The notes under the pieces: generated by a model
What the model saw: the letters and a program-made list of their open reading frames with translations, nothing else
Told to the model about the DNA's origin: nothing
The model's database searches: none
NCBI GenBank assembly: GCA_905479495.1
Contig: CAJQMR010000013.1
Location: 124,001-188,000 of the forward strand
DNA: 64,000 nucleotides
Direction: 5' to 3'
DNA from: an uncultured Anaerolineae bacterium
GTDB lineage: Bacteria; Chloroflexota; Anaerolineae; Promineifilales; Promineifilaceae
Shown: positions 38,369 through 51,355 of the stretch, in pieces
Layout of the letters: every line of letters begins with the position of its first letter
How positions within the stretch are numbered: position 1 is the stretch's first letter
Translations under genes and position numbers: made by a program

Positions 38369-39241
38369 GTGATTGAGATTCGTAACGTCAGCAAACAATT
38401 TTTCTCGCTCAAAGCCCTGGACAATGTAAACATCCAGGTGGGGCGCGGCGAAGTTGTGGGCCTGCTCGGGCCAAACGGTGCTGGCAAAACCACCTTGTTC
38501 AAACTGATTGCCGGATTACTTCATCCTGATAGTGGACAAATACGGCCGTCAAACGGCCGTTGGCCTGCCATTGGCTACAAACCGGATCGACTGCTGTTCC
38601 CTAACCGGCTGCGCATCAGCACCTATTTAACAATGATGGCCAGCTTATGCGGCATTCCCCCTGAAGACCAGGAAAAAGCGGTCTTCGACGCGCTGGTAGA
38701 GGTAGATTTGGTCAGCCAGGCCAGCAAGCGCATTGGCGACTGTTCTAAAGGCATGCGGCAGCGGTTGGGCCTGGCTCAGGCCATTATGGGCAATGCGCCC
38801 TTGCTGCTGCTGGATGAACCTTCCAACGGACTGGACCCAAATGGCCAGGCAGAAATGCAGGCGCTCATAAAAAAGCTTCATGCGGCTGGGAGGACGATTG
38901 TAATTAGCTCCCATCAGCTGGAGGAAATTACGGCCGTTTGCACCCAATTGATCATCTTAAACAATGGCCAGGTCCATTACCAAAACAGTATGGTTGAGGC
39001 ACTCACCATCAGCCCCCACACCATTATTCAGGCAGATCGCGATCTGGCTGAGATTGCCGATCTCGTCCGAGCGCAGCATCCCGAAATACGGGTGGAAGGT
39101 AACAAGATCCAGCTGCGGGGTGAAGCGATGAAGCTGCGTCGCGAGATTTTGGCCTTGCTGCTACAAGCCCAGTACGATGTCCTGCATGTGGAACAAAAAC
39201 ATGTCACGCTGGCAGAAATTTACGCGAGGGCAGTCCGATGA
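38369..39241 (+). CDS. ABC transporter ATP-binding protein (GTG start)
   Basis: GPNGAGKTTLF, CSKGMRQRLGLAQA, LLLLDEPSNGLD. Confidence 0.95.
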   Translation: MIEIRNVSKQFFSLKALDNVNIQVGRGEVVGLLGPNGAGKTTLFKLIAGLLHPDSGQIRPSNGRWPAIGYKPDRLLFPNRLRISTYLTMMASLCGIPPEDQEKAVFDALVEVDLVSQASKRIGDCSKGMRQRLGLAQAIMGNAPLLLLDEPSNGLDPNGQAEMQALIKKLHAAGRTIVISSHQLEEITAVCTQLIILNNGQVHYQNSMVEALTISPHTIIQADRDLAEIADLVRAQHPEIRVEGNKIQLRGEAMKLRREILALLLQAQYDVLHVEQKHVTLAEIYARAVR

Positions 39242-40059
39242 TCCAACGCATTTCCGTTTTAACCCGATACTTTATTCAGTCACTCCTTTTTTCGCTGACG
39301 GGGCTCTTTTATCTTTTGCTGATGCTGGCTTTTTGGTTTGTGCTGTTTAACCCGCAGCAGCAAACGCCAGATGTCGCTTATTATCAACTGCTAATTGGTG
39401 CCTTTGGTGCGGGCTTGGTTTTTCTGGTCACGCTGAGCATGGCAGCCAGGGCCAATGATGCCCAACATTATCCTTTTGTGGTCCGGCTAAAGAGCCGGGT
39501 GGAGTTTGTAACGGCCGTTCTGCTTAGCAGCATCCTGGTTACCCTCTTCTATCAACTGCTGCTTGCCATTCTGGCCCTGCTAAATGGCCCGTCACTCACT
39601 TTAGGGCATTTACTGGAGATTCCCCCCATTTGGCTGGCCCCGATGATGATGACGGCCGTGTTAGCCCTGCACGCCTCCGATTTCATTACCATTGGCTGGT
39701 CACGCATTTACGTCTTTGGCATATTGGCCATCTTGCTGTTTGGTCAGGGGCTGCAAAATGACAGTCTGGCCAGATTTGCTACCGGATTAAGCCGCTACGC
39801 CATCAACCAGGGCTGGGTCCAGATTAGTACCAACCTGGACAACTATGCCAATACCCTGGCCCAAACCAATGAGAACATCATTAGCCGCCTGTTTGGCTTT
39901 GTTTTTTGGCCGTTTGAGGCGTTAGCCGACGGCATCACCAACGGCTACTTTACCGCCAATCAGGCACTCGCACCGGCTATTTTACTGCTGTACGCCATCG
40001 TCTTGTTTCTTCTGGCAGTCGATTTATTTGCCAATAAAGATTTAGAATTTACGGAGTAA
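39238..40059 (+). CDS. ABC transporter permease
   Basis: multi-pass hydrophobic; overlaps ATPase stop. Confidence 0.85.
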   Translation: MIQRISVLTRYFIQSLLFSLTGLFYLLLMLAFWFVLFNPQQQTPDVAYYQLLIGAFGAGLVFLVTLSMAARANDAQHYPFVVRLKSRVEFVTAVLLSSILVTLFYQLLLAILALLNGPSLTLGHLLEIPPIWLAPMMMTAVLALHASDFITIGWSRIYVFGILAILLFGQGLQNDSLARFATGLSRYAINQGWVQISTNLDNYANTLAQTNENIISRLFGFVFWPFEALADGITNGYFTANQALAPAILLLYAIVLFLLAVDLFANKDLEFTE

Positions 40060-40067
40060 GTGATCTC

Positions 40068-40280
40068 ATGGAATGCTGGCATTGTGAAAGACCGGCCCAT
40101 GCGGCCTGTAAATTTTGTGGGCGGGCAGTCTGCAAAACCCACGCCGAAGAAAAACCGTATATCATTCACTCTTACCGCACAACAACGGGCCAGTATAAAG
40201 CGTTTGTTGTGGCGGGGGCCGTGTGGTGTGGCATTTGCACACCACAGCAAGACCCCGTCACCCTCAAAGATTTAGAGTAA
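40068..40280 (+). CDS. small zinc-binding protein (70 aa)
   Basis: MECWHCERPAHAACKFCGRAVCKTH...WCGIC metal-ligand pattern. Confidence 0.75.
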   Translation: MECWHCERPAHAACKFCGRAVCKTHAEEKPYIIHSYRTTTGQYKAFVVAGAVWCGICTPQQDPVTLKDLE

Positions 40281-40335
40281 TTTTCCCGGAAACTTAAGAC
40301 ACATTCCTGACTACCTTAGGCAGTTTCCAGGAAAT
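40280..40335. repeat. dispersed hairpin repeat copy 2 (degenerate)
   Basis: ttttcccggaaac ... gtttccaggaaat. Confidence 0.75.
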
Positions 40336-40345
40336 AGACGCACAG

Positions 40346-40447
40346 TTAGCGAATGGTGGGACGAGCCAACGCCACACCGACTATTAAGCCAATGATGACA
40401 GCAATCAAAAATAGTATGACCAAAAATGCAAAGGTTACCTGAATCAT
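40346..40447 (-). CDS. 33-aa single-pass membrane peptide, absent from the ORF track
   Basis: MIQVTFAFLVILFLIAVIIGLIVGVALARPTIR*; SD gaaaggag upstream of ATG. Confidence 0.65.
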   Translation of the reverse strand: MIQVTFAFLVILFLIAVIIGLIVGVALARPTIR

Positions 40448-40535
40448 TGCGAACTCCTTTCATCGAAACCTGTTGATGCCTCCTGTTGTCGCCCCACAGA
40501 CTTGCCAGGCGGTGAACCCGACTGGTCTCTCTCAC

Positions 40536-42557
40536 TTAGCTAAATTGCGGTGTCAAAAACAGCCGGTAGCCACGCCCATGAACGGTGAAGAGGTAGCGCG
40601 GCTCACGCGGGTCTGGCTCAATTTTACGGCGCAGGCGGCTAACGGCCGTATGCAGCCGGTTCAACACATCCGGTTCAGGATCGGCCAACTCATTCAAACC
40701 ATCCTGTAAAATATCATCATATTGGCACAGCTTCCCCGGATTTTGGTACAAATAGCGCATAATCTTAAACTCCTGGCTGGTTAGCTCAACTGGCTCGGCT
40801 TCCACCCATACGCGCCTGTCGCGATGATCCAACCAGATGCCGTTACTCGCTTCTTCAGGCACCGAATCGGTTTGAATATTTTGCCACTGCTCAGCCAGCA
40901 TGGCAGCCGTAAGAAGCGCATGCACATACGCTGCCAACTTGCGTTTGGTGTAAAAGGTGTCTGGATCAAAGCTGGCAATTCTGGCGATGGCGCAAAAGAA
41001 GATCGCCCACTGGTAGGCGTCCAAATCACAGCCAGCCAATTTGGCGGCATTTTGGCGCACCCGTTCAATAATCCAAACAGCGTTTAGGGCTTCCGGTTCT
41101 AAATGATCCAGATTAATATCATCCTGTAGGTGGTTGACCTCATTGAGCTTTACCTCGATGGCCAACCGTTGGCTAAAGGCCCGATGATCGAACAGGTCGT
41201 ATTTAACGGCTGTTTCCAACGACACAAAATCAATGAGCAGCGGCGCCCGACCTACCTGGGCAAAATCGAGCAGCCAGGCATGATTTTGTTGGTCTACCAA
41301 CACGGTATTGCCATTGATACGACCGTGGGTGATGCCCCACTGCGCTCGCCGCGTCTGCGGCAGTCGATTTTGTGCCAGCAGCGTAACTGGATTGGGAAAA
41401 CGATAGGTTTCATCGTTCTCCTTCAGGCGAAACGCGATCTGGCGGCCATCCACATCCAACTCCACCACATTGGCTGCCAGCGCCCGCTCTGCCAGAGCAG
41501 GCAATATCTGCTGCAATTGGGTCGGTGACCCAATCAGCTCATCTAATCGCAGCCATTGGTGGAAAAAGGCTTGCAAATCAGCCTCTTTGTTTTGTTCGCG
41601 ACCCGTTTCGTACCAGCCACCTAGATTGATTTGATACAGATGATCAATGGCTGGCAGCAAATCTTCAATAGCTCGCTTGCGGTATAGTTGTCGAAGCGTG
41701 GCCGTCGCTTCCAAGTCTTTGCCCATAAACGTGTAGGCCGTGGCCCCAAAATTAGGGGTCATCGCAGTATGCAATTTGCCTAAATTTTTGATGCTCAGTC
41801 GATCTGGTACGCGCTTTTGGTAGCGCTGATTTTCAGCTAAAATGGCAGTTTGATGACCACAAGAAACAATAAAACGCGTTTCGGTACCGGCAGGATCAAA
41901 GGCGAAGACAGGAAGAATTAAACGGCCATTATACTGGGTGAATGACTGCCCAATCGTAATTTGCACAAAATCCTGAAAAAGCTTGCGGAATAAATCTTCA
42001 AATTCCGCCGAACGGCTGGCCAGCTGTGACTCTGGCAAATCAGGCAAAAGCGTATTTACCAGCTGCAAAAAAGTGTTGTGTGGCTGCCATTGAATGACCA
42101 GCTCCCAGTTAATCGGCACATATTGGGCTAGAATTGTCTCCACCGCAGCCACCAATTTCCCTGGCGTCGTGTCGCGTTTGTCCAAAAACTCCACGGCAGA
42201 CTGGTAACCCTGCAGATCTTGCTTGAGCACCTCAACCACGTCTTGGTAAGCAGGAAATTTGGTCAGAATAATCTTGGGTATCAAACGAGATGATTGTTTG
42301 GCTACCGTCAGACCGCTTTTGTCCTTCTCATCGTTATCTCTCTCCATACGTAAATCCATAATCGCCAGATGCACACGCTCTTCTTTTAGCACACGAACGG
42401 CGTCGCCGGGATTGGATACACTTATAACGGTATAATCCGTTTCTTCCAGTTTGCTGCGACAAGTGCGTAGAAAAATCTGATCGTCGTCAGCCAGCAATAT
42501 TTGGTAATCTGCACCTTTCTTCACAAAATATCTCCCCAATTGGATAAATCTAACCAC
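40536..42557 (-). CDS. REC - degenerate APH-like - winged-helix regulator (673 aa)
   Basis: N-terminal REC (LLADDDQ, LAIMDLRM), central ITHGRINGNTVLVDQQNHAWLLDFAQVG, C-terminal Trans_reg_C ending VHGRGYRL. Confidence 0.85.
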   Translation of the reverse strand: MVRFIQLGRYFVKKGADYQILLADDDQIFLRTCRSKLEETDYTVISVSNPGDAVRVLKEERVHLAIMDLRMERDNDEKDKSGLTVAKQSSRLIPKIILTKFPAYQDVVEVLKQDLQGYQSAVEFLDKRDTTPGKLVAAVETILAQYVPINWELVIQWQPHNTFLQLVNTLLPDLPESQLASRSAEFEDLFRKLFQDFVQITIGQSFTQYNGRLILPVFAFDPAGTETRFIVSCGHQTAILAENQRYQKRVPDRLSIKNLGKLHTAMTPNFGATAYTFMGKDLEATATLRQLYRKRAIEDLLPAIDHLYQINLGGWYETGREQNKEADLQAFFHQWLRLDELIGSPTQLQQILPALAERALAANVVELDVDGRQIAFRLKENDETYRFPNPVTLLAQNRLPQTRRAQWGITHGRINGNTVLVDQQNHAWLLDFAQVGRAPLLIDFVSLETAVKYDLFDHRAFSQRLAIEVKLNEVNHLQDDINLDHLEPEALNAVWIIERVRQNAAKLAGCDLDAYQWAIFFCAIARIASFDPDTFYTKRKLAAYVHALLTAAMLAEQWQNIQTDSVPEEASNGIWLDHRDRRVWVEAEPVELTSQEFKIMRYLYQNPGKLCQYDDILQDGLNELADPEPDVLNRLHTAVSRLRRKIEPDPREPRYLFTVHGRGYRLFLTPQFS

Positions 42558-42580
42558 ATTAATTTCAGCGGATAAACTTG

Positions 42581-42955
42581 TTAAAGTGAGGCGCGATTTA
42601 GCAAAAAGCTACAGCGCTTCAGTAGTACTTTTTCAACCTCGGAAAGGCTTATATAATCCGCAGCTCCAGCCAGTAAAACAGCCCGCGCCCGACGCCAAGT
42701 TGGCGAGTTGGTCAACACTACAATGGGCACCCCTGGGAAACGGCCATGTAGCCACCCAATTTGCTCAGCCAACCCCATTTGCAATCCGCTGGCATCTACT
42801 ATCACCATATCAAACGACATACTCGATTCTTTTTCCAGCATAATTTCTGCCCTAAGCTCTAATGTGCCTAATGATCTTAACTCCCTAGTTACAAGCTTGA
42901 GCCATGCTGAGCGTTCATTGTTGCTTAATATAACGATATGGTTATTGTTTATCAC
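42581..42955 (-). CDS. orphan degenerate receiver-like protein (124 aa)
   Basis: FDMVIVDASG, PIVVLTNSP, GAADYISLSEVE; lacks acidic pair (ILSNNERS). Confidence 0.7.
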   Translation of the reverse strand: MINNNHIVILSNNERSAWLKLVTRELRSLGTLELRAEIMLEKESSMSFDMVIVDASGLQMGLAEQIGWLHGRFPGVPIVVLTNSPTWRRARAVLLAGAADYISLSEVEKVLLKRCSFLLNRASL

Positions 42956-43080
42956 AACATCACCTATTTTGACTAAATTGTCATAATCTCACTTTCTAGA
43001 TAGGCCCATTCTTGACCCAAATAGTATGTTGGGTATTTCCATAGACAACGAAATCATATTTACATCCACAATGATTTATC

Positions 43081-46000
43081 TCAGGATGATCTATGCTGGT
43101 CATATATAGGCAACCAAAGCACCATCTGTGTGCCTTCAAGTGTTGAACCCTTAACATAAATATCACCGCCATACGTCTGTAAGATTGCCTGCACCATCAA
43201 CAAACCACGTCCCAGGTTTCCGGTCCGAGGTTCACGAATTTCTGTGTACTCAAACAAAACTGGCAGCAACTCTGGCGCAATTCCTTTGCCGCTATCTTTT
43301 ACAATAATCTCCAGCGTATTGTCGGTAACGGCCGTTCCAATCCACAACTCTTGAACAAGACATCCCTCCATCGCTTCAATTGCGTTATCGATAATTAGGT
43401 CAAGCGCTAACCGAAGCCACTCAGGACTTACCCACACTGTCACCTGATCAGTTTGTGCAAGATTCGTTTCAGGAAAACCTATTTGAGCGTATTTATCATC
43501 CTCCCAAAGCTGATATAGTCGCTCCTGAATCAGCTCATTCACAGAAATAGCTGCTGCGCCCTGTTCTGACCGTAACGGCGGCGTGATGGGATGGTTAAAA
43601 ATATTCTCTGCCAGACCTGAGACGGTTTTCAGCTCATCAGTCACCTGGCTAGGTAGCACGCCCTCCTCAACCAATTCCTTAAGCTGCGGCAGTACAGCGC
43701 TAACCAAATTGCGGATGTTAACAGCATCCCCCTCAATGCTGTGTCGCCAGGCGTTGCTGGCCATACCCATCCAGGCCAGGGCCGTGCGGGCCCCAACCAA
43801 CCCTTTGGTCTTTTTAAGTTCCTCGTGCTGCGTGGCCTTCGCAATGGCCATACCTGCCTGGTTGGCCAGAGTTTGCAGCAAGGTTACCTGATGATCGAAA
43901 AACCGCTGCGGCTCCTGGCTATATACATGCAACACTGCAATCACCTTACCTTCTGCCTGCACCGGAACGCCAATTAAGGAACGCCGCCTTTTGGAAATTA
44001 CTGAAGGATTAATATTGTCTTCCACTAAAGAGTCATAAATAATAAATGGTTTTCGCTGATCAATAACATATCGGGTAAAACCACCTTCAACTCTGGCTGA
44101 TGTACTATAATGCTTTGGCTTTTGCCCTGGACCCGCTGAAGCGTATGCGGGAAAATAACGCTCCTGATCTTCATCCCAGAACAGAATATTACTACTGGTA
44201 GTATGCGTTAGTTCCATAGCTGCGTCCAAAATAATTTCCAATATTTCATCCAAATTCAGTGTCCCAGCTAAAGCCACACCCATCCGCTGCAAAATTTGGA
44301 CTTCACGGTACGCTTCCGCATTTTGGATGGCAATCGCCGCCTGCGCCGCCAGTGAAACCAGTGTGGCTTGATCCTGCTCACTAAAAGCGTTCGCCTCTGG
44401 ATGTTCGATATTAATTACGCCGATGATATTGTTGTCTACACGAATTGGCACGACCAGTTCTGAACGTGTTTCATCGTCGTAGATGATGTAATCGGGATCA
44501 TGGCGCACGTCGTGAACCAGTTGGAGTTTGCCAGTCTTGAAGGCACGCCCTTCAATGCCCTGGGGCCCATCTGTTTCCAGTGGAATACTTTGCAACTTTT
44601 TCCGTAACTCTCCCAAAGCTTCTGGCGGATAAGCTGCCAAAAAGTCAAGCTTGCGACCATTGTGCATCAAAATACAGCTAAACCGGGCTTTACGGCCGTT
44701 TGCCTCCGTCAATTCCCACGCCTTTTCCACAATCGTGTCCAGCGTGCTGTTGATATCTAAAGAACTAATCACCGCTTGTCCCGCTTCATACAATACGCGT
44801 AGAGCGGAGGTTTGGGCCTGGGCCTGGGCAAACAGGCGCGCATTTTGAATAGCATTGGCCAGCTGATTAGCCATTGTTTGCAAGGCTTGTATATCCTCAT
44901 CGGCCAGATGCAAAACCTCCGTATTTTGTACATCTAGCACACCAATCACGTCACCCTGAACTTTCAAGGGAAAGCAAAGCTCCGCCTGAGTTTTGGGCAA
45001 TTCCGGGTTAGGCCAGAAACGCGAGTCTTGCCTTACGTCAGACACCAAAATATATTCACCGTGCCGGACGGCCGTTCCTACTAAACTTTGCGATCCTACC
45101 GACATTTTGAAACCATCCTGGATCAATTTACGGCCGTTTGGCGAAGACGCGCTGCGCATCACTGCAAACTCATTTTCTGGGTCCAGCAGGAAAACAGCCA
45201 CATGATAAACATGAATCCGCTCAGAGATGATGTGGACTATATTGTCCAACAGCTCCTCTTCATCTAGCTGGCTGTTGGCATAGCTGGCTACCATTGCCGC
45301 AGCATCCAACAGCTCCGCATGGCTCATCACTTTTTGATATAGACGGGCGTTTTGCAGAGCAATTGCGGCCTGCGCAGCCAGCGCCTCCAATGCTCGGGTA
45401 TTTTCCTCATCAAACGCCTCATACTCAGAATGTTCGACGTTGATCACGCCCACCACTTCGTGCTCTAAAATAATAGGCACTACCAGTTCGGAAAGCGTCG
45501 TCGCGTTAGAGGCCAAGTAATCTGGGTCCTCCTGTACATTTTCCACTAGCTCTGAAACACCAGAGTCGAATACGCGCCAGGGTATGCCATTACGGCTGTT
45601 TTCACCAAAACCGCGTGAAATCGTGCTGCCTCCAAACGCCCGGCGTGTATGGTGTAATTCTTCAGGCGGATAAGCGGCGACTAAATTTGCCGTATTAGGA
45701 CCTTGCCGTAGCCAGATGCTGGCGTACGTAATCTGCCGATTGGGGAAACTAACCAACCGCCAGGCTTGCTCCACAATATGGTTAAGCACCTCGTCCCGCT
45801 TGAGGGTGGAATTAACCGCTTTACCGGCGGCGTAAATGGCCTCCATAACAGCCGTACGCCGGTTGCGCCGTTCAAAAAGCTGCGCATTGTAAATGGCCAC
45901 CGCCGCCTGGTTGGCATACAACTCAACATGCTCCAGTTCTTCCTCGGTAAAGTGACGCAGTTGGCGATGAAAAATAAACATCACGCCCACGGTAGCAATG

Positions 46001-49000
46001 CCCACGCTTAGCCGAACCGCCACGTAAGAGGCTACTTCTTCCCCGGCCATAAAGTTGCTGTTTGTAAACAGCAGATCCTCGGCGGCATCGTCGGCAATTT
46101 GCATCTTTTGCGTATGGTTCAGTATAAAAATGACGGGTGAATCGGGAGCAGGTGGTTCGTGGAACGGCCGTTCATCGCGAATGCCATACATGGTAGGTGG
46201 CAAAATAACCTTGTTCTTTTCCTCGTCGTACACATGCAAAGTGACCGCATCGCAGCCCAAGGCTTCATGTGTGCCCACCACTACGGAATTTAAAGTCTCT
46301 TCCAGCTTGGCTAACGTGGTCACATTGGCCACAACGCTAGAAACTTGCCGCGCTTTGCCTAAACGACTAAGCAGTCGGGCATTGCGCAGTGCCAATGCCG
46401 CATGATTAGCAAACGTTCTGGCGATATCCTGCTCCTCCGCTGAGAAGCTGTGCAGTGAGCTATAGTTAACATAAAGCACGCCAAGTTTTTCTTCGCCAAC
46501 CCGCAAAGCAATACCTTGGAAGCTCCTTATTCCTAGTTCGCGTAGCAGGCCATGCGTTGTTTCGCCAATAAAATGATATTTTTCCAAATCATCTACGTTC
46601 TGCACACCAATCCAGCCTAACTCCATAGCAGTTTCAGCCGTCCCTCCTTTGCGGGGGCCTGGCTTGATAATCTTTTGCCAGACTTTGGCCGGAATGCCAG
46701 AGTGAATAGAATTTTCCAAGTCAAATTTGCGGTGCGTGTTATCGTAAGACCAAATAACGGCTGAATCCGACTGCAAGACCTGGCGCGCCCCGAGTACAAT
46801 CTGCTCCAATACCGATTGCAAATCAGCGGCCACCGCCAGAGATTCAGCCGCCTGGCGTAAATGCTCTAGCTCTTTAAGGCGGCGGGCATTTTCATAGGCA
46901 ATAGCTGCCTGGTTCACATACAGTTGCAGCGCTTCCACTTCCGACTGAACAAAGCGGCGCGGTTCTGAATAATAAACCCACATCACACCAATGCGCAGCC
47001 GATTGACTGAAACTGGCAGCCCCACCGCCGCCCGAATACCACGCTGAAAGAAAGAGGGGTTGGCTTGCTCTATTTCTCGCTCAAAGTCCTCAATAATTTG
47101 TGGTTCCCCGCTAGTCATCACGGCCATCGACAGGCCGTTAGGACGAATGGCGCTTTCCACATCCACATCGTCAGACTCAGACAAGATCAGGTCCGTCATG
47201 TTGCCCGTTTCCATGTCGATGAGCACCAGGCGGGCACCGCTGGCGTGGGCTGTTTTTTGCGCCTGGTACACGATGTCCCGCCAGACCAAATCTGGATCGG
47301 TGGAAAGGACCAGGGCATTGCTGGCACTATAGTAAGTACGAAGCCGATTGCGCGAAACGGCCGTTTCCTCCAGCAGCCGATTCTTTTCGATACCCATCGC
47401 CGCTGTGTTGGCAAACGTCAACAACCGCTCCTCATCCTCACGCGTGATGGGACTCTTGGTAAACTTGTTATCCGCAACCAACAGACCAATAGCCTGATCC
47501 CGAGCCAGCAAAGGCACAATCACCAACGGCCAATCGGGCTCAAACAACTCCACAAACGCCTGCGGCAGACGGTCATATTCATACTGTGTTACCTGCAAGC
47601 TCTTGCGCTGCACAATCACCCGGGACAGCAAGTCCGTTCCGGCAGTTTGCAGCGGCACCTTTAGCTGTAGTATTGCCTCACCTACCGGTGTCAGCTTAAT
47701 CCCTTCCAAATCTAGAAGCTCTAAGTACCGGCCAAAATCAAATAGACCTTCACGATGATCCCGTTCCCAGTCCAAATGAGTTTGTTGCAGCTCAAAGTTA
47801 CCAATCCCCATGCTGCCTATTAAATTTTCGCCCCGGTCATCCAACAGCAAAATGGCCGCTCGGTTCAGGCCCAGGCCATAACCGGCCGTCACTCCCGTCA
47901 ACACTACATGCAAAATCTTATCCATCTCCGTAGAAGATTGAATGTAGTTGCCAATGCGGTGCAAAATCTTTAGCTGCGAAAAAAGACGCTGTTCCCGGCC
48001 AATAATTTGGGAGGTGTGCAGGGCAATGGCAGCCTGAAAGGCAAACCGTTCCAACACCTCAATATCGGCTTTGCTCAACCAGTGCCCGTTCTCTTCATCA
48101 GCAACAAACAAAACGGCTTCTACTTCTCCAGCGTGGCGCAGCGGAATGGCCGCCACAGTGGCAAAATCATACGACTCCCAAAGCGAGGTGCGGTTGGGCC
48201 ACTGATCATATTGGTTGGTAAAGCACGTTTCACCAAGCCGGGCCACCTGGCCAATCAGGCCGTCTGCGTGGCCGATGATACTGCCAATCAGCTCAGTTTT
48301 TAGGCCGTAGACATCGCTCAAGGTCAGCTCGCCCATGTGTGGGCTGTTGATGAACAGACCTCCTTTATCACAATTCACTAAATGGGCTGCCAGACGAATA
48401 ACTTCACGCAGCAGCACAGGCGATTCTTTGATGCCACGAATACTGCGTGATGTTTCATCTAACGTTTCAAAGAGCTGGTTACGCCGCCGGGCTTGTTCAT
48501 ATAAGTTGAGCCGGTCAATGAGTACGGCCGTTTGCTTAGCCAGGGCAATCGCTAAATTTTGCTTCTCAACAGAGAGTGCTTCCGTTTCTTCTTGCCGCAG
48601 CTCGCCCAGGTCCATAATGCCCACAACCCGTTTACCGCTGCGCAAGGGAATCGTTAACAAAGATTGAATAGGATGTGACAGCTTGAGCCGCTCGCCCCAG
48701 CTTTGCAAGATGCGGCGTCCATGCCTTCCTTCTTTGCGAATCAGGCTGGCAGTGCGTTCGTACAGCAGTTCATCTAAACAGTACCATTCGGAAACGGCCG
48801 TTTCCAAACCAATCTGCGGCTTCCACTGCCAACCATCATTCATTTCTTGCTGGGGAAAAATTGCCTGCGTCGTTAATGTATTCTGCTCTTCGTCCAGCAA
48901 AAAAATGCAGCAGAAAGAAGTTCCCCAATGAGTCACCATCATCTGCGCCAAATTTTGCAGCCCCACCAATAAATTGTCTGCTTGGGCTAGCATATTACTA

Positions 49001-49866
49001 GCCAACACCATAAGATTTAATCGACGCTGCATTTCTGTTACCGAGCGCAAATCTCTAAAATAGCCCACAACACCAGCTTTTTTCTTGTTGGCGTCATATT
49101 GCCAGGTAACTGACAAGCGAATGGGTACAGGTTTATTATTTACATCCAACACCACTGTTTCGTAATCCCGTAGCTGGCCATCTGGAGAAAGCAAAAGCTC
49201 CTGCGCTATTCGTCGTGTTTCCAACGGATCGGCATAAATGGAGCGCACGGGAAGCCCCTGAATTTTTTTTCGTTCGTAACCCAATATTCGTTCCGCCTGC
49301 GTGTTGTAAAAGGTGATCTTGCCGTTCCGATCATTGGTGATCACGCCATCAACAGCCGTGTCTAACAAACGGGCATAGCTCAGATTTCGCTCATTTATCT
49401 CGTCTACCAGTCGGGCACTTTCATTTTTATTAGCATCGGCCAGACGTTTGAGATGTAAAAATTCGGCGGCATCTTGAACCTCCAGGCCTAGCTCCGGTAG
49501 CTTTGGCCAAGCAGGGAGCTGCCGCCATACTCCCATACCTCGCAGTTCCACCAAGGAAAACTCGCTGTCAGACAAAATGAGGATAATCAGGTCGGGGTAT
49601 TGTTTTTTGATGTAAGGTATGAGCTGCCGCAAATTGATAATTGGTTTGTTATTTTTAAGGGAGGGTAAAGCATCGGAGAGGAGCAAGATATCGAAACGAT
49701 CTTTCCCGACACCATTTCCCTCAACCAAAGCCGATAGCAGATTTTCGGCCGTCTGTACAACCGTCACCTGAAATTCACTTTGGCCCTGCATGTACCTACT
49801 TATTCGAGCACTCTTTTGTGAATCTACTTCGGAAATTAAAATATTAAAGTTTGCATTTTGTAACAT
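43081..49866 (-). CDS. giant sensor histidine kinase: pseudo-REC, PAS, about 10 GAF, HATPase_c
   Basis: PAS GVITNDRNGKITFYNTQAERILGYE; ten GAF ends of the type A.QAAIA..NARL; HATPase DNAIEAME, DSGKGI, LGRGLLM. Confidence 0.93.
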   Translation of the reverse strand: MLQNANFNILISEVDSQKSARISRYMQGQSEFQVTVVQTAENLLSALVEGNGVGKDRFDILLLSDALPSLKNNKPIINLRQLIPYIKKQYPDLIILILSDSEFSLVELRGMGVWRQLPAWPKLPELGLEVQDAAEFLHLKRLADANKNESARLVDEINERNLSYARLLDTAVDGVITNDRNGKITFYNTQAERILGYERKKIQGLPVRSIYADPLETRRIAQELLLSPDGQLRDYETVVLDVNNKPVPIRLSVTWQYDANKKKAGVVGYFRDLRSVTEMQRRLNLMVLASNMLAQADNLLVGLQNLAQMMVTHWGTSFCCIFLLDEEQNTLTTQAIFPQQEMNDGWQWKPQIGLETAVSEWYCLDELLYERTASLIRKEGRHGRRILQSWGERLKLSHPIQSLLTIPLRSGKRVVGIMDLGELRQEETEALSVEKQNLAIALAKQTAVLIDRLNLYEQARRRNQLFETLDETSRSIRGIKESPVLLREVIRLAAHLVNCDKGGLFINSPHMGELTLSDVYGLKTELIGSIIGHADGLIGQVARLGETCFTNQYDQWPNRTSLWESYDFATVAAIPLRHAGEVEAVLFVADEENGHWLSKADIEVLERFAFQAAIALHTSQIIGREQRLFSQLKILHRIGNYIQSSTEMDKILHVVLTGVTAGYGLGLNRAAILLLDDRGENLIGSMGIGNFELQQTHLDWERDHREGLFDFGRYLELLDLEGIKLTPVGEAILQLKVPLQTAGTDLLSRVIVQRKSLQVTQYEYDRLPQAFVELFEPDWPLVIVPLLARDQAIGLLVADNKFTKSPITREDEERLLTFANTAAMGIEKNRLLEETAVSRNRLRTYYSASNALVLSTDPDLVWRDIVYQAQKTAHASGARLVLIDMETGNMTDLILSESDDVDVESAIRPNGLSMAVMTSGEPQIIEDFEREIEQANPSFFQRGIRAAVGLPVSVNRLRIGVMWVYYSEPRRFVQSEVEALQLYVNQAAIAYENARRLKELEHLRQAAESLAVAADLQSVLEQIVLGARQVLQSDSAVIWSYDNTHRKFDLENSIHSGIPAKVWQKIIKPGPRKGGTAETAMELGWIGVQNVDDLEKYHFIGETTHGLLRELGIRSFQGIALRVGEEKLGVLYVNYSSLHSFSAEEQDIARTFANHAALALRNARLLSRLGKARQVSSVVANVTTLAKLEETLNSVVVGTHEALGCDAVTLHVYDEEKNKVILPPTMYGIRDERPFHEPPAPDSPVIFILNHTQKMQIADDAAEDLLFTNSNFMAGEEVASYVAVRLSVGIATVGVMFIFHRQLRHFTEEELEHVELYANQAAVAIYNAQLFERRNRRTAVMEAIYAAGKAVNSTLKRDEVLNHIVEQAWRLVSFPNRQITYASIWLRQGPNTANLVAAYPPEELHHTRRAFGGSTISRGFGENSRNGIPWRVFDSGVSELVENVQEDPDYLASNATTLSELVVPIILEHEVVGVINVEHSEYEAFDEENTRALEALAAQAAIALQNARLYQKVMSHAELLDAAAMVASYANSQLDEEELLDNIVHIISERIHVYHVAVFLLDPENEFAVMRSASSPNGRKLIQDGFKMSVGSQSLVGTAVRHGEYILVSDVRQDSRFWPNPELPKTQAELCFPLKVQGDVIGVLDVQNTEVLHLADEDIQALQTMANQLANAIQNARLFAQAQAQTSALRVLYEAGQAVISSLDINSTLDTIVEKAWELTEANGRKARFSCILMHNGRKLDFLAAYPPEALGELRKKLQSIPLETDGPQGIEGRAFKTGKLQLVHDVRHDPDYIIYDDETRSELVVPIRVDNNIIGVINIEHPEANAFSEQDQATLVSLAAQAAIAIQNAEAYREVQILQRMGVALAGTLNLDEILEIILDAAMELTHTTSSNILFWDEDQERYFPAYASAGPGQKPKHYSTSARVEGGFTRYVIDQRKPFIIYDSLVEDNINPSVISKRRRSLIGVPVQAEGKVIAVLHVYSQEPQRFFDHQVTLLQTLANQAGMAIAKATQHEELKKTKGLVGARTALAWMGMASNAWRHSIEGDAVNIRNLVSAVLPQLKELVEEGVLPSQVTDELKTVSGLAENIFNHPITPPLRSEQGAAAISVNELIQERLYQLWEDDKYAQIGFPETNLAQTDQVTVWVSPEWLRLALDLIIDNAIEAMEGCLVQELWIGTAVTDNTLEIIVKDSGKGIAPELLPVLFEYTEIREPRTGNLGRGLLMVQAILQTYGGDIYVKGSTLEGTQMVLWLPIYDQHRSS

Positions 49867-49993
49867 TATAAAACCTTAGACTTCGCCACGACGGTAAATC
49901 ATGCGCCAGCTTGTACCCGATCGTTGGTTGGGTATCGTTTACTCATGCATATAAACTAAAATTATCATCCAGTTTCTATACATTTTCTTAAAC

Positions 49994-51130
49994 TTAAGAT
50001 AGTAAAGGTTTGAGTGCATATGCCATTTCGCCATACAAAATGGGCAGAATATGCTCATTATGCTGATAGTGAGATACCAGGCTGTAGAAGACCAAAAACA
50101 AAAATGCAGCATAACGCTTTTGCCAAGTTCTATCTTCAAAAAGTTCACTGATTTGTTGCGCCAGGCTTTCAACCTTCTTGTCCAAGACACGACAAATGGG
50201 TGGTATTTGCCCTGCTAAATCATACTCAATGCACAAATTTCCTTGCGTAATATCAATGTGGACTGGGATTCTATTATGTGCTTTAGAATAGGTTGCCTGA
50301 TCGATATAAAATGACGTCTGCCACCACTGCCGCATTTGAACAATCGACCAAACCCAATCCGCTTCTGAACTTACATTGGGCAAATCGATCAGGAACCAAC
50401 GCAGCCCATCACCAATCACGGGAGTTTGAATAATAATATTTTTTGCGTGTTCGTCGCCATGAGTGGTTACAGAAAGGGGGGCTGGATTTTGAGTAAGTAT
50501 ATCTACTGCAACGTTGACCATTTCATTTATCGAAGGAAAGGCAATACTGTTAACTTGCATGGGCAATGAGAACAACTCGGCAAAGCTTAGAAGGTGGCCA
50601 ATGGCAGAAGGCATTTTCAAAGATTCCAATATACTTGCTTTGCGCTGCAAACGTTTAATAAAGAATTGATTGTCTGAAGGCTTTTTATTGAACGTGCGAA
50701 TCCAAAGGGCTGACATTTGGCGCAGGAAATCATCATAGACTGCCAATACTTGTGTATAACTAAAAAGCGATTTTTCAACAATTCGATGCAGATTTGCAGC
50801 TAAAACATAAGGAACGCAAAGCCAACCAATTGAACTATCATAAGCCAAGAGAGGTAAGGTATGGTTTGGTAAAACCTTTTCCATTATTAGAAAACCTTGA
50901 ATTTCTTTTGGCACTTTATCTGGATCTATCTTGAACATCAATTGCATTTGTGAGTCAACCATAATGGTAATAGCTCCAGAAGCACCTTCTGTTAAGGCAG
51001 ATTCACTAACAACTTGGCTATTGGCATAGGGAAACTGATTATTCACTACTTGTTCTGTGCCTCTCCTGATGATGCTTCGCAGAAAAGCAGTGGTTCTCGG
51101 GTCTTGTTCTAAAGGCAATTTGTCTTTCAT
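49994..51130 (-). CDS. APH-fold kinase-like protein
   Basis: TTHGDEHAKNIII...WFLIDLPNV resembles HGDxxxxN + D catalytic loop. Confidence 0.6.
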   Translation of the reverse strand: MKDKLPLEQDPRTTAFLRSIIRRGTEQVVNNQFPYANSQVVSESALTEGASGAITIMVDSQMQLMFKIDPDKVPKEIQGFLIMEKVLPNHTLPLLAYDSSIGWLCVPYVLAANLHRIVEKSLFSYTQVLAVYDDFLRQMSALWIRTFNKKPSDNQFFIKRLQRKASILESLKMPSAIGHLLSFAELFSLPMQVNSIAFPSINEMVNVAVDILTQNPAPLSVTTHGDEHAKNIIIQTPVIGDGLRWFLIDLPNVSSEADWVWSIVQMRQWWQTSFYIDQATYSKAHNRIPVHIDITQGNLCIEYDLAGQIPPICRVLDKKVESLAQQISELFEDRTWQKRYAAFLFLVFYSLVSHYQHNEHILPILYGEMAYALKPLLS

Positions 51131-51305
51131 TGGTTGGTCTCCAATTTTTTAGACCTACTCTTTACCATTTATATTTTATCTGGATATGCCTTGTCTGAAT
51201 CGATTGGCAGTTGGTGTCACTGGCAACCTGGATGGAGAAGCTATTGAACTAACCGCTCAATTCTTACTTTATTCTTGCAACAATTCGTACATCCCCTTGA
51301 CAGAC

Positions 51306-51355
51306 ATAGTAGTACATCATTGACAATTTGTCAAGATCGTGTACGAACTTCGTAC
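51306..51355 (-). promoter_or_regulatory. consensus promoter overlapped by two operator dyads
   Basis: minus strand TTGACA (51329-51334) N17 TACTAT (51306-51311); dyads TTGACA-ATT-TGTCAA and GTACGA-ACT-TCGTAC. Confidence 0.8.

Follow-up and report, generated by a model that had tools for sequence, protein, structure and literature searches.

We found that a group of genes at positions 40,346 to 51,355 of a 64,000-nucleotide stretch of DNA from an uncultured Anaerolineae bacterium (assembly GCA_905479495.1, contig CAJQMR010000013.1; this whole stretch is called the window below) contains a conserved unit, which is probably, though by no means certainly, a two-component operon of Chloroflexota (Anaerolineae) whose response regulator incorporates a pseudokinase. 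The contig that holds the window is 388 kb long, and the genome comprises 7.28 Mb, with contamination estimated at 7.4%. A first-pass annotation of these letters had described five codirectional leftward genes, and the window's listing of open reading frames (ORFs) contains all five at the coordinates below, with products of 378, 2261, 124, 673 and 33 residues. The operon is undescribed in the literature searched, which covers only part of the whole literature. In the following lines, REC stands for a receiver domain and APH for aminoglycoside phosphotransferase.

40346..40447, minus strand: 33-residue single-transmembrane micropeptide (MIQVTFAFLVILFLIAVIIGLIVGVALARPTIR), with an AAAGGAG ribosome-binding site
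40536..42557, minus strand: 673-residue regulator, REC (residues 20-118), TCAD9 pseudokinase, winged helix (residues 588-666)
40872..42140, minus strand: TCAD9 domain, residues 140-562 of the regulator, APH-type kinase fold by model
42581..42955, minus strand: 124-residue degenerate receiver, with a weak Pfam receiver match
43081..49866, minus strand: 2261-residue giant cytosolic sensor histidine kinase, recognised by Pfam and conserved residues
49994..51130, minus strand: gene 1, a 378-residue APH-like kinase-fold gene, best read as a lineage-specific insertion outside the conserved system
51306..51334, minus strand: sigma-70-like promoter TTGACA-17-TACTAT, a 10/12 match, overlapping the palindrome TTGACAAATTGTCAA

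We compared the window with three congeners (genus g1: G027, G028 and G029), with two further genera of their family (g2 and g12) and with two Anaerolineales genomes (G, L and C denote genomes, loci and contigs; G000 is the window genome). The order sensor, degenerate receiver, in some copies an extra REC gene, and REC-TCAD9-winged-helix regulator recurs in all of these groups, and is complete in 12 other loci whose contigs span the region (L054-L063, L113 and L114); the degenerate receiver is absent from the L066 and L073 copies. Conservation in both gene order and protein sequence extends to the micropeptide and the three large genes downstream of gene 1, but not to gene 1 itself. Thus, neighbourhood conservation, which the first-pass annotation had proposed as a check on its system, holds for the operon and fails for its first gene.

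The regulator has the ends of a standard response regulator and an unusual middle. Its receiver has an intact acidic pair (DD24-25), acceptor aspartate (D68), threonine (T99) and lysine (K127), with D24, D68, T99 and K127 invariant across 14 orthologues, and its C terminus is a Trans_reg_C winged helix (PF00486, E 4.8e-16), which matched RpaA and OmpR chains in a search of PDB sequences. Between them lies a match to TCAD9 (PF19974) of 46.5 bits, relative to a Pfam gathering score of 40, and in profile comparison this domain aligned with intact TCAD9 at E 7e-37. An AF2 model built from the 14 orthologues (predicted local distance difference test score, pLDDT, 83.7; predicted template modelling score, pTM, 0.84) predicts an APH-type kinase fold, with amicoumacin kinase (6sum), maltokinase (4u94) and APH(3')-Ia (4ej7) as the best solved matches in Foldseek (probability 1.00; E about 1e-5 to 1e-4, 3e-5 to 6sum_A). 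Since the template modelling (TM) scores are modest (0.3-0.5), this likeness is one of fold. The structure check that had been suggested for these residues therefore returned the expected fold, and the guess that the domain might relate to ternary-complex or effector-associated domains was a good one: the regulator carries Pfam TCAD9, and effector-associated domains occur in relatives' copies of the operon.

Alignment to intact relatives indicates that the regulator has lost its catalytic residues. Serine 232 replaces the lysine, Arg413 the aspartate and Thr418 the asparagine, while the Mg-binding-type Asp431 is kept, so that D431 is all that remains of the active APH-type signature (an N-lobe lysine, HGDxxxxN and the DFG-position aspartate). 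The loop THGRINGNT...WLLDF, with H411-G412-R413, had been described as matching but altered, and the alteration is itself conserved as such in relatives: the catalytic lysine and aspartate are lost in 16 of the 16 winged-helix-fused copies seen, with HGR, HGC, PGI, PGK or CGT in place of the aspartate loop, although the asparagine position is retained in L113 and L114. A branch with 100/100 support separates these 16 copies from the rest, although several sequences are long-branched. A straightforward reading is that catalysis was lost along with the fusion to the winged helix.

The regulator gives a clean example of an APH-type kinase fold that has lost catalysis inside a response regulator. 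Its catalytic sisters are still present in the same genomes, so that the conversion of an enzyme into a transcription-factor module can be followed and tested. It resembles OmpR/PhoB regulators in its receiver and Trans_reg_C winged helix, in the GAF/PAS histidine kinase of its operon and in the 11-bp direct-repeat boxes upstream of the -10 box at relatives' operon promoter; it differs from them in the approximately 420-residue APH-fold pseudokinase between receiver and winged helix, in the extra degenerate receiver and, in relatives, in an extra REC-EAD7 or REC-membrane gene. The predicted fold of its middle domain, as well as gene 1 by profile, falls with the aminoglycoside phosphotransferase/maltokinase/amicoumacin kinase superfamily (PF01636), but the regulator lacks the active-site lysine, aspartate and asparagine and is a transcription factor. 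Caulobacter DivL, a repurposed histidine kinase in a two-component pathway (PMC4211667), is likewise a catalytically repurposed kinase fold within such a pathway; however, the fold there is that of a histidine kinase, whereas here an APH-type fold is fused into the response regulator.

The 2261-residue sensor starts with a degenerate receiver-like region, followed by a PAS domain (residues 164-273) and ten GAF stretches, and ends with a segment resembling a dimerisation and histidine phosphotransfer (DHp) domain, in which His2042 (WRHSIEG) is the candidate phospho-acceptor, and an HATPase_c domain (residues 2148-2254; PF02518, E 1.2e-14) with N, G1 and G2 boxes. His2042 and the three boxes are conserved among the sensors of relatives whose regulator, like that of the window, carries a winged helix (type B operons). 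The sensor is 80-89% identical to its 2631/2634-residue orthologues in congeners, relative to which it has lost two N-terminal GAF domains (~362 residues) in frame; this loss adjoins the gene 1 insertion, and both events are possibly one rearrangement. The 124-residue protein, previously called a pseudo-receiver, is indeed a degenerate receiver conserved in relatives, with an orthologue at the same operon position in 12 other loci: it keeps an aspartate at the acceptor position (Asp54), has lost the acidic pocket and the conserved lysine, and carries a conserved SPTWRRAR motif.

Upstream of the sensor, tandem 11-bp direct repeats (TTGmCAGAnnn) are present in 10 of 10 g1, g2 and g12 loci with upstream sequence, just upstream of a TATAAA-like -10 box (for example, TTGCCAGAAAA TTGCCAGACAA TTACCCGTTC or TTGACAGAATA CTGACAGAGTT). 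Across 16 genomes, 23 sites match the pattern TGMCAGANNNNTGMCAGA exactly, compared to 1 for the reversed pattern, and G027, G028 and G029 have one exact site each, located at the sensor promoter. An 11-bp spacing is what winged helices of the PhoB/OmpR type read, and because the repeats fit this spacing, the 673-residue regulator likely autoregulates the operon promoter in the three genera. In g2, the box also precedes another micropeptide gene by approximately 105 bp (G003, G004 and G005) and occurs between two genes without a Pfam match (G002, G003, G005 and G006). At four g2 loci (L239, L248, L251 and L253), a conserved direct-repeat box, TGCCAGAAACCTGCCAGA, with a -10-like TATAGT, lies between divergent genes without a Pfam match, and is a candidate regulon member. 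The conserved direct-repeat promoter offers an immediate handle on DNA binding.

Gene 1 is absent from all three congeners by family search, and searches by profile found no relative in 55 other genomes of the order or 398 other genomes of the phylum. Nor were relatives found by a pattern scan of GTDB genomes or IMG/VR, or in plasmids or phages, and the protein had no match in Pfam, NCBIfam, PADLOC, PHROGs or PDB sequences; a single-sequence search gave one weak partial match in G010 (E 5e-4, 73 residues), which the profile did not recover. In the two congeners with the full upstream region, smpB is followed directly by the 2631/2634-residue sensor, and in G029 smpB lies beside the sensor start on another contig. 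DNA homology to a congener breaks off at the stop of smpB and picks up again near the start of the sensor gene. Gene 1 has a GC content of 40% and a third-position value (GC3) of 0.37, compared to ~50% and 0.53 for the sensor. Given its absence from congeners and phylum, its low GC and the break in homology between smpB and the sensor, gene 1 is best read as a foreign, recent, lineage-specific insertion that displaced the ancestral promoter in the window genome. The sole further copy found is 77% identical and lies in the same genome on contig C30 (L065, G000:C30:46000-62053), not next to any two-component operon. Near it are a sigma-70 region 4 ORF, an unassigned 520-residue ORF, a P22/phage antirepressor-type gene, a beta-propeller protein and an MFS (major facilitator superfamily) transporter, surroundings that are possibly a mobile element.

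The product of gene 1 does have the APH-type loop ascribed to it in the first-pass annotation (THGDEHAKN...FLID), with Lys67, HGD224-226, Asn231 and Asp249 all present. Profile-profile comparison against nine APH proteins encoded elsewhere in the window genome gave E 6.5e-5 over 185 columns, with a score of 40; none of 40 shuffles scored above 22, and four unrelated profiles scored 14-19. With the residues named above, gene 1 could be an active small-molecule kinase. A single-sequence structure model was discarded (pLDDT 37), and membership of TCAD9 was unsupported (hhalign E 0.09). If gene 1 is an insertion, the promoter at 51306-51334 belongs to its segment, and this promoter occupies the place where relatives have the 11-bp direct-repeat promoter, which the insertion has removed. 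The sequence once called a strong promoter is there, at 10 of 12 positions, but such matches are no commoner in the window than in shuffles (13 found, 15.1 expected) and it goes with the inserted DNA; no second copy was found elsewhere in the window genome.

The intact relatives of the regulator belong to a second, type A operon, made up of a GAF kinase, a REC-TCAD9 protein without a winged helix and an AAA/STAND-winged-helix protein (L067-L070, L165, L183, L185, L188, L190, L193 and L194). Both operon types occur in G000, G023, G024, G027 and G028. A micropeptide trails the sister operon at L067, L068/L165, L069, L070, L183, L188, L190, L193 and L194, and in L067 the intact REC-TCAD9 is followed by a SIR2-like domain. 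The type A operon apparently is also undescribed, and is possibly of more interest than the window version.

Several relatives carry additional genes that would tie the operon to bacterial systems of the conflict or apoptosis type. A REC-EAD7 gene occurs in g2 and g12 copies; it lies between the degenerate receiver and the regulator in L106 and L107, and EAD7 is also in the operon in G001 and G005, as judged from the position of the EAD7 match. L066, L113 and L114 have instead a gene for a REC-TRADD-associated-membrane protein (REC-CyanoTRADDas_TM). In L061 (3911-15494; G001:C93), an intact TCAD9-bDLD1-EAD7 gene, bDLD1 being a bacterial Death-like domain, lies directly upstream of a sensor/pseudo-REC/REC/REC-pseudoTCAD9-winged-helix operon; it is a different gene, and a weak parallel to the place of gene 1. 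The six genomes checked contain 20-43 EAD7 matches each, and the 43 in G000 (7.3 Mb), in ORFs of very different size, constitute a large effector-associated network.

This vocabulary is shared with ternary conflict systems: the TCAD9 family itself and, in relatives, EAD7, bDLD1, STAND/AAA and the TRADD-associated membrane domain. In contrast, a histidine kinase drives the operon here, and neither MoxR AAA+, vWA nor a third core component of a ternary conflict system was found in operon genes or the neighbours scanned. APH-like kinase effectors have been reported for ternary conflict systems (Kaur et al. 2020, eLife, PMC7159879), with no histidine kinases among vWA-associated effectors (PMC7159879), and receivers are described as occurring independently of histidine kinases (PMC8195603); neither Kaur et al. 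2020 (PMC7159879) nor the 2021 paper mentions TCAD9 by name in the main text. The operon places a histidine kinase, which is missing from the published accounts of such networks examined, together with TCAD9, EAD7 and TRADD-associated domains.

On balance, we favor a mechanism in which a histidine kinase acts through a pseudokinase-gated regulator that controls its own operon. Ligands would bind the GAF/PAS array of the cytosolic kinase, which would autophosphorylate at His2042 and hand the phosphate to Asp68 in the receiver of the 673-residue regulator; the phosphorylated regulator would then dimerize, and its winged helix would bind the 11-bp direct repeats, in relatives first at the promoter of its own operon. 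The catalysis-dead, APH-fold TCAD9 domain may be a ligand- or partner-controlled gate between receiver and winged helix, and the degenerate receiver either a dedicated adaptor or a phosphate-independent inhibitor. The extra REC-EAD7 (or REC-membrane) gene of relatives might pass this signal on to effectors that carry EAD domains; the window genus has no such arm. Several observations count against this scheme. The DHp segment of the sensor had no HisKA match in the Pfam scan, and the gating role of the pseudokinase is argued from conservation, such that the domain may do no more than link its neighbors passively. The Anaerolineales copies L113 and L114 showed no direct repeats in their upstream sequence, and thus the DNA target may differ there. 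In the window genome itself, there are zero exact TGMCAGANNNNTGMCAGA sites and the sensor promoter region is without a repeat; with the repeat promoter gone, the window copy may have been rewired or have lost autoregulation.

We considered that this might be a large two-component system of the ordinary kind, its dead TCAD9 serving as a structural linker without a signaling role. All parts of a standard OmpR-type system are indeed present, and distant copies vary at the catalytic positions with no single replacement held, but the ~420-residue domain has been retained across several genera, at 25-85% identity and with numerous invariant positions, and catalytic relatives are present in the same genomes; we consider this unlikely. 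Still less likely is that the regulator's TCAD9 is a partner-binding decoy or target of the intact type A REC-TCAD9 kinases. The five genomes with both operon types and the separate STAND-winged-helix output of type A would suit such a role; however, no type A REC-TCAD9 operon is among the matches listed for g2 genomes that keep type B. The model of the first-pass annotation, in which gene 1 is an active APH-like kinase forming one relay around the sensor with the regulator's pseudokinase, is favored by the intact loop and by a gene codirectional with the sensor and 127 bp from it, and in L061 the corresponding place upstream is taken by an intact TCAD9-bDLD1-EAD7 gene. The relay nevertheless seems very improbable: gene 1 is missing from the congeners and from 398 other Chloroflexota genomes, it sits as low-GC DNA in a replaced segment between smpB and the sensor, and the 77%-identical copy on C30 has no two-component operon next to it. 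Since gene 1 is no part of the conserved system, the relay is not a conserved design.

A broader possibility, which we hold only tentatively, is that the operon is a histidine-kinase-driven branch of EAD/TCAD conflict networks (programmed cell death or antiviral) that recruits EAD7 effectors as well as transcription. The TCAD9 domain of the regulator, the REC-EAD7 and REC-CyanoTRADDas_TM genes of relatives, the gene upstream in L061, the abundance of EAD7 in six genomes including that of the window, and the STAND, NACHT and SIR2-like partners of type A relatives are all consistent with it. In contrast, PADLOC anti-phage models had no match among the four large proteins, and no MoxR, vWA, VMAP, caspase or TIR was found among the operon neighbors scanned. 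Moreover, no EAD domain was found in the window copy, and its genus is without an EAD gene in the operon. We therefore do not claim EAD-coupled membership for the window copy, which looks purely transcriptional. It is similarly doubtful, although conceivable, that these operons form a new class of immunity or cell-fate signaling, in which a histidine kinase would drive both an EAD7 adaptor and a dead-APH-gated transcription factor, with the micropeptide as a dedicated output or feedback element. We retain the autoregulated two-component operon with a pseudokinase-gated regulator as the preferred reading.

The micropeptide is under strong purifying selection and represents a genuine conserved gene family. 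Only 2 of 12 and 2 of 15 changes relative to congeners are nonsynonymous (9.4 expected of the 12), and 0 of 5000 runs of a neutral simulation had as few nonsynonymous changes as observed. Relatives of the type M-x-STLIIIALIALIIGM-x-x-GVSLxRP number ~45 small ORFs in 52 genomes; family members have 30-33 residues, a single membrane span and a GVSLxRP end, with several per genome. The micro-membrane peptide proposed at the outset is thus substantiated by both the selection test and the family. Approximately 21 of the ~45 ORFs lie downstream of TCAD9 operons of either type, and other copies adjoin kinases, receiver/two-component, STAND, ClpB-like or DUF4349 genes. Because about half of the copies lie outside TCAD9 operons, we rejected the micropeptide as a TCAD9-specific marker and regard it as a general family that is often signaling-linked; that it is a membrane-anchored modulator is our guess. 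The window copy had no PHROGs or NCBIfam match, and the analysis reveals a large unannotated family of ~30-residue membrane proteins beside signaling genes.

Two further features lie beyond the operon end.

38369..40059, plus strand: ABC transporter pair (ATPase and permease), convergent with the operon, a conserved neighbor in three genera
40282..40334, minus strand: hairpin lying where the operon and the ABC/zinc-ribbon genes converge

The ABC pair is a possible functional partner of the operon. Following the permease, a 70-residue cysteine-rich ORF (MECWHCERPAHAACKFCGRAVC...; 40068-40280, plus strand), which L102 and L104 also have, resembles a small zinc ribbon protein. The hairpin that had been placed at the operon end (~40282-40334) is more stable than shuffles (-19.1 kcal/mol, z -2.7) and has an equivalent inverted repeat at the same position in L102, the nearest relative; it is likely a shared terminator of the operon and the convergent ABC/zinc-ribbon genes.

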